This document shows, one piece after another, positions 2,187 to 7,818 of a stretch of 64,000 nucleotides of DNA. The stretch covers positions 1 through 64,000 of the forward strand of contig CALCCA010000122.1 of the NCBI GenBank assembly GCA_937899725.1, written 5' to 3'. Under the pieces are notes generated by a model. It saw nothing but the letters and a program-made list of their open reading frames with translations. It did not search any database and was not told the DNA's origin. Both the position numbers and the translations under genes were made by a program. Source of the DNA: an uncultured Halomicronema sp. (GTDB taxonomy: Bacteria; Cyanobacteriota; Cyanobacteriia; Phormidesmidales; Phormidesmidaceae). The number at the start of each line of letters is the position of its first letter. The stretch's first letter is position 1.

Positions 2187-2533
2187 GGAAAACCGCGATC
2201 GCAAGAGCTTACCTATGCTAGCGTGTCGGCTCCGGACTCCTGCTGCTCAATTCTCCCTGAGGTTGAATCCGTCTGCACATTGCCGCCGCCTAATGCCGAT
2301 TTTCCAGGGAGCCGCTCAGAAGTCGGTAGGTGCAACCTTTGCGGTTCTGAAGCGTCTGGGTGAGCGAACGCAGCCCACTAATCACTTGCCGATTGCCGGT
2401 TGCCAAGCTCTGCCAAGATTACCTGTGTTGTTTTGTACTGGAGTCCTGGTGAATTCCGCAACAGTCGCATTGCACAGGAATGAGGAAGTGAGTGGCAAGA
2501 TAGAGGGAACGAGCGATGAAGGAGCTGGACGCC
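2187..2533. other. Intergenic region between divergent cobO and the ADP-ribosylglycohydrolase gene
   Basis: About 350 bp that must hold promoters for both divergent genes. I see no convincing hexamers, riboswitch or RNA gene. The only clear signal is an AAGGAG Shine-Dalgarno sequence at 2519-2524, 9 nt before the ATG at 2534. Confidence 0.4.
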
Positions 2534-3307
2534 ATGCTAGGTGCGATCGCGGGCGATATGATTGGCTCGGTGTATGAGTTCAACAATCGCCGTACCAAGA
2601 ATTTCCCGCTATTTATCGACGACACCACGTTTACCGATGACACGATTTTGTCGGTCGCGGTGGCCGACGTGTTGATGACCGGGGGCAACTATGCCAAAAC
2701 CTTCAAAAAATATTATTGGCGATACCCCAATCCGAGCGGTAGCTATGGCGCGCGATTTCATCAGTGGGCATCGTCGCCCAGTCTGACGCCGTACAACAGT
2801 TGGGGCAATGGCTCAGCCATGCGAGTTAGTCCAGTCGGCTTTGCGGGCGAAACCTTAGACGCGGTCTTGCAAGAAGCGGAAAAAACCGCCGTCGTAACCC
2901 ACAATCATCCCGAGGGGGTCAAGGGCGCGCAGGCGACTGCCGCCGCGATTTTTCTCGCTCGTCATCAGCATTCCAAAGCGGATATTCGCGCCTACATTAG
3001 CGAGACGTTTGACTACGACCTCAACCGCACGGTTGATGAAATTCGTCCTCACTACTTTTTCAACGAATCTTGCCAGGCGACCGTGCCTGAAGCGATCATC
3101 GCTTTTCTTGATGCCGATGATTTTGAAGATGCCATTCGCAATGCGGTGTCGTTGGGGGGCGACTCAGATACGCTGACCTGTATTACCGGTGGCATTGCCG
3201 AAGCCTTTTATGGCGCGGTGCCCGACGACATTGCCCAGCAGGTTTGGGAACGCTTGGATATGCGGCTGAAAACAGTGACCGCTAACTTTCGGGCTCGCTA
3301 CTGCTAA
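2534..3307 (+). CDS. ADP-ribosylglycohydrolase family protein
   Basis: Predicted Mg-dependent ADP-ribosyl hydrolase (DraG/ARH fold), removing ADP-ribose from a protein or small substrate; the actual substrate is unknown. The protein has 257 residues. Metal-binding signatures are GAIAGDMIGSVYE at the N terminus, TDDT at residues 34-37, and GGDSDTLTCITGGIAEAFYG near the C terminus. I chose the ATG at 2534 over an upstream one at 2516 because AAGGAG sits 9 nt before it and because family members usually begin directly with MLGAI. No DraT-like transferase is in the window. The next gene, a cysteine hydrolase, is 75 bp downstream in the same direction. Confidence 0.85.
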   Translation: MLGAIAGDMIGSVYEFNNRRTKNFPLFIDDTTFTDDTILSVAVADVLMTGGNYAKTFKKYYWRYPNPSGSYGARFHQWASSPSLTPYNSWGNGSAMRVSPVGFAGETLDAVLQEAEKTAVVTHNHPEGVKGAQATAAAIFLARHQHSKADIRAYISETFDYDLNRTVDEIRPHYFFNESCQATVPEAIIAFLDADDFEDAIRNAVSLGGDSDTLTCITGGIAEAFYGAVPDDIAQQVWERLDMRLKTVTANFRARYC

Positions 3308-3382: not shown

Positions 3383-4429
3383 ATGACCCTCCAAACCCGC
3401 ACCCCCGTTCCTGATTTTTTTGACCGTCAAAAAGTTGACCAAGTCTATCGTGTGCCCTACCAAGCCCGCGCTGCCGAGGCCCGCACCTGGGCACAAAAGC
3501 ATGACATCACTGCTGCTAGTCGCGATCTCTTTCGTATTTGTCTGCTGCTGATCGATGTGCAAAATACGTTTTGCCTGCCTGAGTTTGAGCTGTTTGTTGG
3601 CGGGCGCTCAGGGCGCGGCGCGGTGGAAGATAATCAGCGCCTGAGCCAGTTCATTTATGAAAATCTGGGCCACCTTACTGCGATCGCGCCCACGCTCGAC
3701 ACTCACACCGCCGCCCAGATCTTTCATCCCTTGTTTTGGGTGGATGCTGACGGCCAACCCCCTGCCCCGATGACGATGATTAGCTATGACGAGGTAGTCG
3801 CCGGGCACTGGCGCGTTAACCCCGAGATGGCTGCCTACATGGCGACCCCCGACCTACAAAAATTTGCGCTGCACTACACTCAGCGCCTGACTGCCGATGG
3901 CAAATACCCCCTCACTATTTGGCCTTACCACTCAATGCTGGGGGGCATTGGTCATGCGCTAGTGTCGACCATTGAAGAGGCCTGCTTCTTTCACTCGATT
4001 GCCCGCAACAGCCCGACTCGCTATGAGATCAAAGGCGGCAACCCCCTCACGGAGAACTACTCGGTGCTGAGTCCTGAAGTGCTGGAGGATGAAGCGGGGA
4101 GCGCGATCGCGGCTAAAAATACGGCCTTTACCGAGGAGCTGTTGACCTATGATGCGATCGTGGTGGCGGGACAGGCCAAAAGCCACTGCGTTGCTTGGTC
4201 TGTGGATGATCTGCTGTCAGAAATCACCCGCCGCGACCCTGCTTTGGCGCAGAAGGTTTATTTGCTCGAAGATTGCACGTCGCCAGTTGTCGTTCCCGAT
4301 GTGGTGGACTTTACTGACGCGGCTGACGATGCGTACCAACGCTTCGCCGAGGCGGGCATGCATCGAGTCACCACGCAAACGCCCCTAGCCGACTGGCCAG
4401 GGATGCAGCTTTCGACGCTACCTCATTGA
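3383..4429 (+). CDS. Isochorismatase-family cysteine hydrolase
   Basis: A 348-residue member of the isochorismatase/nicotinamidase superfamily. The catalytic Asp lies in LLLIDVQNTF near residue 56, and the nucleophilic Cys in VAGQAKSHCVAW near residue 270. Between them are an IWPYHSMLGGIGHAL segment and a large insertion, so it is much longer than nicotinamidase (about 200 residues); the substrate cannot be assigned. It is cytosolic, with no signal peptide. It follows the ADP-ribosylglycohydrolase gene by 75 bp of pyrimidine-rich spacer, so the two may be cotranscribed. A link to ADP-ribose/nicotinamide turnover is only suggestive. Confidence 0.82.
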   Translation: MTLQTRTPVPDFFDRQKVDQVYRVPYQARAAEARTWAQKHDITAASRDLFRICLLLIDVQNTFCLPEFELFVGGRSGRGAVEDNQRLSQFIYENLGHLTAIAPTLDTHTAAQIFHPLFWVDADGQPPAPMTMISYDEVVAGHWRVNPEMAAYMATPDLQKFALHYTQRLTADGKYPLTIWPYHSMLGGIGHALVSTIEEACFFHSIARNSPTRYEIKGGNPLTENYSVLSPEVLEDEAGSAIAAKNTAFTEELLTYDAIVVAGQAKSHCVAWSVDDLLSEITRRDPALAQKVYLLEDCTSPVVVPDVVDFTDAADDAYQRFAEAGMHRVTTQTPLADWPGMQLSTLPH

Positions 4430-5434: not shown

Positions 5435-6130
5435 CTAAGACTGCCGGGCCGCTGATAATTGTCGATTGCTTTCGAGGGTGAGCTGCACATCCACCAGTTC
5501 TGCCAGCTGCCGAGTCAGATCTTCAGACCGCTTTTTGGCCGTGACTTTGCGGTGTAGAGCAGCCCGCGCCAAGTCTTCGCGATCGCGCTGCAGAGCCACT
5601 TCGGCGACGCGCTGCCAGCTATCCATCTCTTGCCGGGCTCGGTCGTACTGCGTTTTGAGCGTTTGATGGGCGGCGGCAATGTTAGATAACGCCTGATGGA
5701 ACAACCCAATCGCTTCATCTGGGGTGCGATCGCGAGCTGTGCCTTCGATTACAGTGCGCAAAGCCGACCGGTTGTAGCGATCGATCTGGAGCCCAAACCC
5801 CGCGAGTTGCTCACAGTCGCTGTGGCCCGTCTTGCACCAGTTGGCAAAGTGCTCGCAATTATTGGTTAGCAGGTCGTACTGCTGCTCGTCGAGGCGGCTT
5901 GCGGCCCGTTGCACCACAACATGGGGCAAATAAGCCATCGAGCGGGGTTTCACAAAGATGCGCCCGCCGCGAGCAAACAAATCACGGGGCGTGCGAGTGA
6001 TGGTGGGCACCTCTAACCCTTTGTAGTAATGAATGATGTCATCATCGCCGCAGTCGATGCCGTGATGTTCATACACACCGGGCACCCCAGCCACCTCTCG
6101 CATGGCATATACCTGGTCACCTAGTGCCAT
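5435..6130 (-). CDS. LRAT-domain protein fused to a PspA/IM30-like helical segment
   Basis: A 231-residue two-part protein. Residues 1-107 are an LRAT-type (lecithin:retinol acyltransferase, NlpC/P60-like) domain: GDQVYAM, His23 in the HHGI motif, His34 in the DIIHYY strand, and Cys92 in the hallmark NNCEHFAN motif. This is the His-His-Cys set of thiol acyltransferases and phospholipases. Residues ~139-231 are predicted coiled coil and resemble the PspA/Vipp1 helical hairpin. The stretch WQRVAEVALQRDREDLARAA (172-191) is near-identical in pattern to the corresponding PspA segment. There is no signal peptide. A GTG at 6133 could add one residue. It probably acts on membrane lipids at the cytoplasmic face; that function is inferred. 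Confidence 0.82.
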   Translation of the reverse strand: MALGDQVYAMREVAGVPGVYEHHGIDCGDDDIIHYYKGLEVPTITRTPRDLFARGGRIFVKPRSMAYLPHVVVQRAASRLDEQQYDLLTNNCEHFANWCKTGHSDCEQLAGFGLQIDRYNRSALRTVIEGTARDRTPDEAIGLFHQALSNIAAAHQTLKTQYDRARQEMDSWQRVAEVALQRDREDLARAALHRKVTAKKRSEDLTRQLAELVDVQLTLESNRQLSAARQS

Positions 6131-6467
6131 CACTTCGTTCTCCGGTTGATTGGGTCCGTAATCTGCAAGCCGCTGACACCCTGACTTGCTGTAGATGTTC
6201 TAGCCCTGTCGATAGCCCAGCCGCATGCTTTAACGGTTGGCAGTCAGCTGAAGACGCTAGCGAGCGCCTGCAGACTAAAGGCATGAGCTGGTATCAAGTC
6301 GCAATCAAGCCGATGGGGCTAAAAGCCTAGACTCGTCACCTCACGGATATCTGCTAGAGTTCTCGCCAAGTGAGTGCTGTCTAATTAAGGGTACTAGACT
6401 GACGATTCCGGGTTCGCGATCGCACGCGATGCTTCTGTGGGCACCCGCTGTGGCTCCGTGCCGTGAT
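6131..6467. other. Intergenic region, nothing recognised
   Basis: About 337 bp between the FHA gene and the LRAT-PspA gene, both on the minus strand. I see no conserved gene, repeat or clear terminator. It should contain the promoter of the LRAT-PspA gene. Confidence 0.35.
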
Positions 6468-6899
6468 TTAGCTTTCGTCGAAATTAGTGGAGTGAATATC
6501 CGTTTTGTCTTCTGGCCCCACCGATGGAGAAGCGGCTTTGGTGCGGGTTACTACGCCATCTCTGAGCTTACGTAATGCTCTGACAGAATCAGTCCCTTCT
6601 TGCTCAATATTGATTTGAATATTTGGGCCAGACCGGGCTAAGCGAATGACGATGCCATCTTCGGCGGGGGCTTGAGCAACGCGCTTACCGTCGAGATAGG
6701 TGCCATTCGTCCCAAGGTTAACGATTTCCCAACCATCATCAACCTGGCGCAGTTCGACATGGTGGCGTGAAACGACTGCGCTGTACAAGACGACATGATT
6801 TTCGGTAGAGCGCCCAATCCTGATGACGGGGTCTTCTTTAAAAGTCCAGTTTTGAACGGGCTCTTTGTTCAGAGGATGTAGTAGCGATAGGGTAATCAC
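6468..6899 (-). CDS. FHA-domain protein
   Basis: A 143-residue protein made of one forkhead-associated (phosphothreonine-binding) domain plus a polar tail. The FHA core runs from about residue 25 to 85, with IGRSTENHVVL, SRHHVEL and LGTNGTYLDG, so the phosphate-binding Arg, Ser, His and Asn are all present. FHA proteins read out Ser/Thr kinase signalling, but no kinase is in this window. The start is GTG at 6899, the only candidate start before the domain. It lies 85 bp downstream of a second FHA gene on the same strand, with an exact 18-bp tandem duplication in between. Confidence 0.88.
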   Translation of the reverse strand: MITLSLLHPLNKEPVQNWTFKEDPVIRIGRSTENHVVLYSAVVSRHHVELRQVDDGWEIVNLGTNGTYLDGKRVAQAPAEDGIVIRLARSGPNIQINIEQEGTDSVRALRKLRDGVVTRTKAASPSVGPEDKTDIHSTNFDES

Positions 6900-6984: not shown

Positions 6985-7818
6985 TTAGCCAGATTGGAAA
7001 ATAAAGGTAACCTTATCACCCTTACCGAGGGCTATTCTATCGCCCGCTCTGAGACGGTGTCGATTGCCGGGCGGTAAGGGCATGGTGTTGACATAGGTGC
7101 CGTTGGAACTACCGACATCTTCTAAGTAGTAAATGTCGCCTTCAACGCGGATGTTGGCATGTACCCGTGACACAATTTCAGAATTGGGAAACCCAGCAAC
7201 ATCAATGGTCGGGGGAATGCGATCGTTGGGTTTGCCAATGTGCAAAATGCTGAGCTGGGGCGGTAGCTCAACGGGGGTATTGGTTTGCACGTGAAACAGC
7301 TGGGCCTGATTGATTTGCAGCTGGGTGGAGCTGCTGCTGGTCGTTAAGGGCGTGACCGTCGGCAAAGGCGACGAGGGCGGTTCGATCCGGGGGGGCGATT
7401 CTGCGGGCGGTTCACTGCCCGGGGCCGATGGTGCGGCGGGCGCTTCGCTGAGCGGGGCCGCAATGCCCTCGGGTGCGGGCTCTGCAGCGGGCGGCTCTGC
7501 GATCGCCGCTTCAGCGACGGGGGTTTCACCGGCACCCACATCCTCCGTCACGATCAGCGGGTCTAGGGGTAATAAGTCGGGAATCTCCACCTCAATCTCG
7601 CTGGGGAGAGTGAGTTCTATATCCGGGGTGGTGGCGGACGAGGCGGAGAGCGTTGAATTTCTCAGGTCAAACCCACATTGGCCGCAAAAGCTCGCGTCAG
7701 ACTGTACCGAGGCACCGCAGCTCGGACAGTTTGCCAACGTCGGTAAAGGCGTATAACAAGCTTCACACTGCACTGCACCATCGGGATTTTGATGATTACA
7801 GTTGGGGCAAACGATCAT
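6985..7818 (-). CDS. Zinc-ribbon and FHA-domain protein
   Basis: A 277-residue protein. Residues 1-52 form two short zinc ribbons (CPNC with CEAC, then CPSC with CGQC; eight Cys in CxxC pairs). Residues ~60-165 are a Pro/Ala/Glu-rich, disordered linker. Residues ~185-277 are an FHA domain with IVSRVHANI and GSSNGTYVN, the phosphothreonine-binding signature. Such proteins act as adaptors in cyanobacterial Ser/Thr kinase signalling. The ATG at 7818 is directly before the first CxxC. It is likely cotranscribed with the shorter FHA gene 85 bp downstream. Confidence 0.9.
   Translation of the reverse strand: MIVCPNCNHQNPDGAVQCEACYTPLPTLANCPSCGASVQSDASFCGQCGFDLRNSTLSASSATTPDIELTLPSEIEVEIPDLLPLDPLIVTEDVGAGETPVAEAAIAEPPAAEPAPEGIAAPLSEAPAAPSAPGSEPPAESPPRIEPPSSPLPTVTPLTTSSSSTQLQINQAQLFHVQTNTPVELPPQLSILHIGKPNDRIPPTIDVAGFPNSEIVSRVHANIRVEGDIYYLEDVGSSNGTYVNTMPLPPGNRHRLRAGDRIALGKGDKVTFIFQSG

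Follow-up and report, generated by a model that had tools for sequence, protein, structure and literature searches.

Vipp1 and PspA shape and protect the thylakoid and plasma membranes, and little is known of the enzymes that they bring along. In the window analysed here, by which we mean the whole 64,000-nucleotide stretch of contig CALCCA010000122.1 from an uncultured Halomicronema sp., one reading frame appears to join an LRAT-like enzyme to a piece of PspA. This raises the questions of whether the two halves truly form a single protein, how much of PspA is present, and what such a piece might do for an enzyme.

A conserved two-part gene

The open reading frame at 5435-6130 (minus strand) is a genuine coding sequence that begins with an ATG at 6130 and encodes 231 amino acids followed by a stop codon. 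A GTG at 6133, one codon 5' of the ATG, is an alternative start, though the N termini of homologues coincide with the ATG; residue numbers given here are counted from the GTG, such that the ATG-based number is one lower. A GGAG read directly from the sequence at 6140-6143 (minus strand) is the likely ribosome binding site, and scans for sigma-70 promoters and terminators gave no clear excess over shuffled sequences. The nearest relatives are likewise from Halomicronema (L005, 95-96%; L006, 78%), and dN/dS against L005 was about 0.08 for the LRAT half and about 0.04 for the tail, indicating purifying selection on both.

Profiles of both parent families, PF04970 (LRAT) and PF04012 (PspA_IM30), matched all 26 of 26 homologues, bearing out the proposal of an earlier note on this DNA that an LRAT-type enzyme and a PspA-derived segment share one conserved chain. 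That note had held that a lack of homologues with both halves, or a tail that was an unrelated coiled coil, would count against the fusion; both possibilities were pursued, and the fusion withstood them.

The N-terminal half is an LRAT/PLAAT-type enzyme

Pfam and structural matches delimit an LRAT/PLAAT-like catalytic domain at residues 3-105 (5819-6127, minus strand), the PF04970 match having an E-value of 3.1e-20 and scoring 73.1 bits where the cut-off is 24.3. Alignment to HRASLS2 located the catalytic residues, all encoded on the minus strand, at His23 (6065-6067), which aligns with the His of 'YAHWAI', at His35 (6029-6031), 12 residues further on, and at Cys93 (5855-5857) within NNCEHF. 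None of the three varied across an alignment of 46 homologous sequences, so the complete His-His-Cys set that had been read from the NCEHF region is indeed present. The best matches to the predicted structure of this half were HRASLS2, PLAAT3 and PLAAT4 (VIA-align Z 13.4-13.3); against 4dpz and 7zom the comparison gave Z 13.4 and an rmsd of 2.0-2.3 over 97 residues, for a model of moderate confidence. As far as fold and active site go, the N-terminal half is established as an LRAT/PLAAT-type enzyme. Its activity is predicted to be the transfer or hydrolysis of lipid acyl chains; phospholipase A and acyltransferase activities in vitro are described for the PLAAT/HRASLS family (PMC4624172).

The tail is a PspA-derived hairpin

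The PF04012 match at 5480-5701 (minus strand) covers positions 42-115 of the 220-position profile, from the end of alpha1 into alpha2. As a single sequence it scored 34.4 bits (E 2.3e-8), narrowly above the curated cut-off of 33.9, and when the genome was scored it fell slightly under it at 32.7; this weak score is not a matter of chance, since every one of the 26 homologues matched both families. When a profile of the tail was aligned by hhalign with 46 cyanobacterial PspA/Vipp1 proteins, a probability of 98.1% was obtained over 74 ungapped columns with 34% identity, compared with 28.9% for reversed PspA, 33.3% for the reversed tail and at most 6.4% for 50 column shuffles. Masking of residues 171-196, the hairpin tip, lowered the probability to 54%, and the tip therefore supplies most of the homology signal. 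A search of the PDB with the family profile returned Vipp1 first (E 2e-9).

The structure model predicts a two-helix hairpin (residues 138-182 and 186-231; 5441-5722, minus strand) with a pLDDT of about 85-95 near the tip, and its turn coincides with the alpha1-alpha2 turn of PspA. The orientation of the hairpin relative to the LRAT domain is uncertain in this model (pTM 0.48; linker pLDDT <50). Although the eleven best PDB matches of the tail model by Foldseek were all Vipp1 or PspA, the best E-value was only 0.005, and VIA-align scored Vipp1, PspA and Snf7 in the same range (Z 11-12.5) as chemoreceptors, moesin, PI3K and other proteins. Taken alone, the structure of the tail is thus unspecific, and it is the sequence that identifies it as PspA-related. 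A chance resemblance or a generic coiled coil was ruled out by the reversed and shuffled profile controls together with conservation that is specific to the PspA/Vipp1 register.

The tail is an alpha1-alpha2 hairpin derived from PspA and nothing further. Helix alpha0 is absent, as the LRAT domain occupies the N terminus and the PF04012 match starts within alpha1; the polymerisation helices alpha4 and alpha5 are absent too, as the chain ends in alpha2 at residue 232. The score against the NCBIfam PspA equivalog TIGR02977 was low (39.8 bits vs 242.95). The description of the tail as a PspA/IM30 segment of ESCRT-III type is upheld in its first part, the kinship with PspA/Vipp1, but not as regards the whole fold, given that the likeness to PspA is confined to the two hairpin helices and the five-helix core with its alpha5 domain swap is missing. 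Without alpha0, alpha4 and alpha5, and with most lateral contact residues gone, the tail lacks what self-polymerisation requires, and a reading of it as a self-polymerising membrane-remodelling unit is not supported.

Only the tip of the hairpin was kept

The strongest conservation shared with Vipp1 lies in the tip motif W173 to L193 (5555-5617, minus strand), which corresponds to W71 to L91 of Vipp1 in both the profile alignment and the conservation mapping; the motif WQxxAExALxxxREDLARAA, as quoted before, is exact and has the Vipp1 spacing. With W173 mapped to W71, we considered the 27 positions between 36 and 130 that are at least 90% conserved in the cyanobacterial PspA/Vipp1 set, defined the tip as 68-94, and counted a position as kept where at least 80% of the fusions carry the same residue. 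Ten of the 12 tip positions were kept (W71, A75, A78, L79, E84, L86, A87, R88, A90 and L91) versus none of the 15 in the shaft (Fisher 8e-6); within the columns aligned by hhalign the counts were 10/12 and 0/6 (Fisher 0.0015). Both p-values are descriptive, as the division into tip and shaft was chosen after the motif had been seen.

In the polymer, alpha5 reaches from subunit j to the hairpin tip of subunit j+3 and binds there, and polymers no longer form once alpha5/alpha6 is deleted (PMC8281802). The tip residues that receive alpha5 of another subunit in published structures are W71, L86, R88 and L91, and in PspA rods the fixed contacts are made by W71, K74, R88 and L91 with F196 and M212, distinct from the lateral hairpin contacts at R44, K55, L125, K128, L138 and R142 (PMC11746142). 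Amongst the fusions, W71 is found in 100%, R88 in 96% and L91 in 81% (the remainder having Ile), whereas position 74, a Lys in PspA and Arg or Asn in the cyanobacterial set, is an invariant Val. Of the lateral positions, R44 and K55 are lost and L125 is nearly or largely lost, whilst position 128 is an Arg in the few rows that reach that far. The hairpin of the fusions thus reads, from its residues, as able to receive alpha5 but unable to stack into a filament.

Distribution, phylogeny and gene neighbours

Full-length fusions, counted as single-frame matches to the full profile, were present in 44 of the 386 sampled Cyanobacteriota genomes, with named carriers including Leptolyngbya, Nodosilinea, Spirulina, Moorena, Snowella and Pleurocapsales. 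Beyond these there were one fusion split over contigs and two loci (L146 and L149) in which the hairpin follows a hydrophobic Gly-rich stretch. No full-length fusion was found in one large family of the sample, Nostoc-like by our reading, and outside the Cyanobacteriota a scan that used peptides from a single sequence revealed only LRAT domains lacking the tail. There was no plasmid match covering >80% of the query. An origin in phages was considered and rejected: viral-labelled contigs otherwise yielded LRAT domains only, and their single full-length match (L172:150-827) lies at the end of contig IMGVR_UViG_3300037308_000710, perhaps in host flank. The window protein had no PADLOC match that would link it to anti-phage defence.

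A tree of the LRAT domain, whose 103 columns allow only shallow resolution, placed the standard fusions in one clade (98/95). LRAT proteins of picocyanobacteria branched inside a clade with the hairpin-bearing L149 and L146 (97/93), a placement which suggests that their two-helix tails are worn-down hairpins, and the tree as a whole fits a single old origin of the fusion. The proteins of L146 (483-1361, minus strand) and L149 (575-1447, minus strand) have an intermediate architecture, in which the LRAT domain is followed by approximately 30 hydrophobic residues and then by the PspA hairpin; this is possibly the ancestral order. At seven further loci (L144, L147, L148, L150-L152 and L155), mostly of the Nostoc-like family, a long Gly/Ala-rich hydrophobic domain takes the place of the hairpin after the LRAT domain; in L144 this hydrophobic domain was weakly matched to BnzA by PADLOC (E 1.9e-5).

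Upstream of the fusion in the window, Pfam identified an FHA-domain protein (6468-6899, minus strand) and a zinc-ribbon and FHA protein (6985-7818, minus strand). About 25 loci, all from one lineage, preserve this three-gene arrangement, which Nodosilinea, Spirulina, Moorena and Pleurocapsales lack; given such restricted synteny, we do not regard the FHA pair and the fusion as a functional operon. Elsewhere in the window lie an ADP-ribosylglycohydrolase-like gene (2516-3307, plus strand; NCBIfam DraG, E 1e-13) and, beside it, a gene for a 348-residue protein (3383-4429, plus strand) that resembles isochorismatase-type cysteine hydrolases by eye and for which neither Pfam nor NCBIfam gave a convincing match; a homologue of the latter also adjoins the fusion in L006, L007 and L089. 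Comparison of locus neighbourhoods revealed no gene neighbour tying the fusion to Vipp1 or PspA. Every fusion-bearing genome included in the PF04012 survey has a full-length PspA/Vipp1, and the genome of the window encodes two.

A possible role in docking on Vipp1/PspA assemblies

Our preferred reading, which we hold tentatively and at somewhat less than even odds, is that the protein is a lipid enzyme drawn to Vipp1/PspA assemblies through the binding of their alpha5 in trans. A cysteine-dependent enzyme of LRAT/PLAAT type would act on membrane lipids, and its tail, having kept the tip that receives alpha5 and lost the faces for self-polymerisation, would form no filament alone but could take up alpha5 from a subunit of Vipp1 or PspA. 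The enzyme would thereby be placed on, or cap, such assemblies where membranes are under stress or growing. Judging from domain order, the LRAT domain would sit where alpha0, which faces lumen and membrane, sits in Vipp1, and from there might hydrolyse or transfer the acyl chains of local glycerolipids such as PG, SQDG or galactolipids. The lipids of most cyanobacteria are MGDG, DGDG, SQDG and PG, the last being the sole phospholipid (PMC13101131), hence the substrate should be sought amongst these and not in phosphatidylcholine. Several points temper this reading: the Val at position 74 alters the docking surface, A75, A78, L79 and A90 may have been kept solely for the packing of the hairpin, the gene neighbourhood offers no tie to Vipp1 or PspA, and the orientation of the LRAT domain relative to the hairpin is uncertain.

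The main rival, which we think less likely, is that the hairpin binds bilayers directly and anchors the LRAT enzyme as the C-terminal transmembrane helix does in animal PLAAT proteins, making a Vipp1/PspA partner unnecessary. On its own, the alpha1-3 hairpin of Vipp1/IM30 is enough to attach to membranes, both in vitro and inside living Synechocystis cells, and does so chiefly by way of alpha1-alpha2 (PMC12636044), and the fusions have no hydrophobic anchor of their own (the 19-residue Kyte-Doolittle maximum of the window protein is 0.71), in contrast to L146 and L149 with their hydrophobic stretch between LRAT domain and hairpin. However, binding by the Vipp1 hairpin is electrostatic and needs positive charge, whereas the tails of the fusions have net charges from -3 to +6 with a mean near +2, against +2 to +5 in the same region of Vipp1, and no longer have the basic residues R44, K55 and R56 that are conserved in the shaft, whilst keeping the tip. 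Docking on Vipp1/PspA is favoured over plain membrane binding because the tail is less positive than the Vipp1 stretch and these basic residues are gone. Under either reading the LRAT domain would hold the position of alpha0.

A tail inherited from PspA might instead have become a regulatory coiled coil, either within one chain or in a homodimer, for instance one lying over the LRAT active site, with no remaining tie to PspA/Vipp1 or to membranes. We regard this as improbable: the Val at position 74 would agree with it, as would the hairpin's resemblance in shape to many unrelated coiled coils and the picocyanobacterial tails without a tip motif, which indicate that an LRAT domain and a hairpin can persist together, yet a generic coiled coil would not need the invariant W173, R190 and A177/A180/A192 in the register of Vipp1. 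Less probable again is that the LRAT-like domain is a cysteine hydrolase of the permuted NlpC/P60 type with proteins or other amides as its substrates, for example in processing Vipp1/PspA clients, rather than a lipid enzyme. NlpC/P60 chemistry is diverse, some permuted members possibly cleaving fatty acyl-amino acid amides (PMC3142127), and the window protein has a weak PPPDE peptidase match (E 0.0024), but the nearest solved structures, by both sequence and fold, are the PLAAT phospholipase/acyltransferases.

If docking on Vipp1/PspA were correct, a lipid enzyme with a docking tip would constitute a chemical arm of bacterial ESCRT-III, remodelling acyl chains at the site of bending or repair.

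Other loose PspA hairpins

Further PspA hairpins were noticed outside full-length PspA. In Nostoc-like genomes there is an apparently split PspA (L168:7266-8069 and L168:5200-6972, both minus strand; similar arrangements at L167:6608-9149 and L170:6423-9742). Its first protein consists of alpha0, two Gly/Ala-rich hydrophobic repeats and an alpha1-alpha2 hairpin, or two tandem hairpins, and the closely downstream protein has a similar hydrophobic domain, an alpha4/alpha5-like segment, WD40-like repeats and a J domain, recalling the link between CDJ2 and Vipp1 in chloroplasts. A 311-residue protein (L171:7209-8144, minus strand; also in L161) carries a PspA alpha1-alpha3 hairpin at its C terminus, after an N-terminal helical domain that looks phycobiliprotein-like by eye.

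A broader and decidedly speculative proposal, which we think unlikely, is that cyanobacteria use the PspA/Vipp1 hairpin as a transferable docking unit: hairpins that stand apart from PspA but keep the alpha5-receiving tip would bring enzymes such as LRAT, and further modules, to the polymers of bacterial ESCRT-III in trans. Were it true, it would provide a bacterial counterpart of the recruitment codes of eukaryotic ESCRT-III, and the split PspA gene pairs would exploit this principle in a second way.

Comparison with known systems

The earlier note knew of no described protein of this architecture; however, a PspA_IM30-NlpC/P60 fusion (AFZ52345.1) predicted to modify phosphatidylcholine is given one sentence by Ravi et al. 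(2024, mSystems, PMC11237479), and, judged from the text of that paper, it very probably belongs to the same family. The window protein is thus a new member of a fusion type already on record. Common to both accounts are PspA and a domain of the NlpC/P60 superfamily, which includes LRAT, in one chain, and a predicted lipid modification that alters membrane composition. The main text of that paper differs in giving neither the restriction to a hairpin nor the retention of the tip, docking or spread of the family, and its phosphatidylcholine substrate misfits cyanobacteria limited to the four lipids named above, a guess which is here corrected for organisms without phosphatidylcholine. Literature searches returned no paper combining LRAT and Vipp1 and none for 'NC domain-containing protein' with Synechocystis; as far as we searched, the distribution, the tip-only retention and the docking hypothesis are undescribed.

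In animal PLAAT enzymes a C-terminal hydrophobic helix serves as the anchor. The window protein shares with the PLAAT/HRASLS and LRAT enzymes the fold, the invariant His/His/Cys and the NCEHF motif, but has a PspA hairpin in the place of that helix. The LRAT proteins of Prochlorococcus and Synechococcus WH7803 are alike in joining an LRAT domain to a two-helix tail and differ in that the tip motif is lost, no PspA Pfam match is obtained and the tail is modelled with low confidence. With Vipp1/IM30 and PspA themselves, the fusions share alpha1-alpha2 and the tip motif W...A..AL....LAR.AL in the same register, but they do not retain the lateral-contact and ATPase residues R44 and E126, and are not expected to polymerise by themselves.
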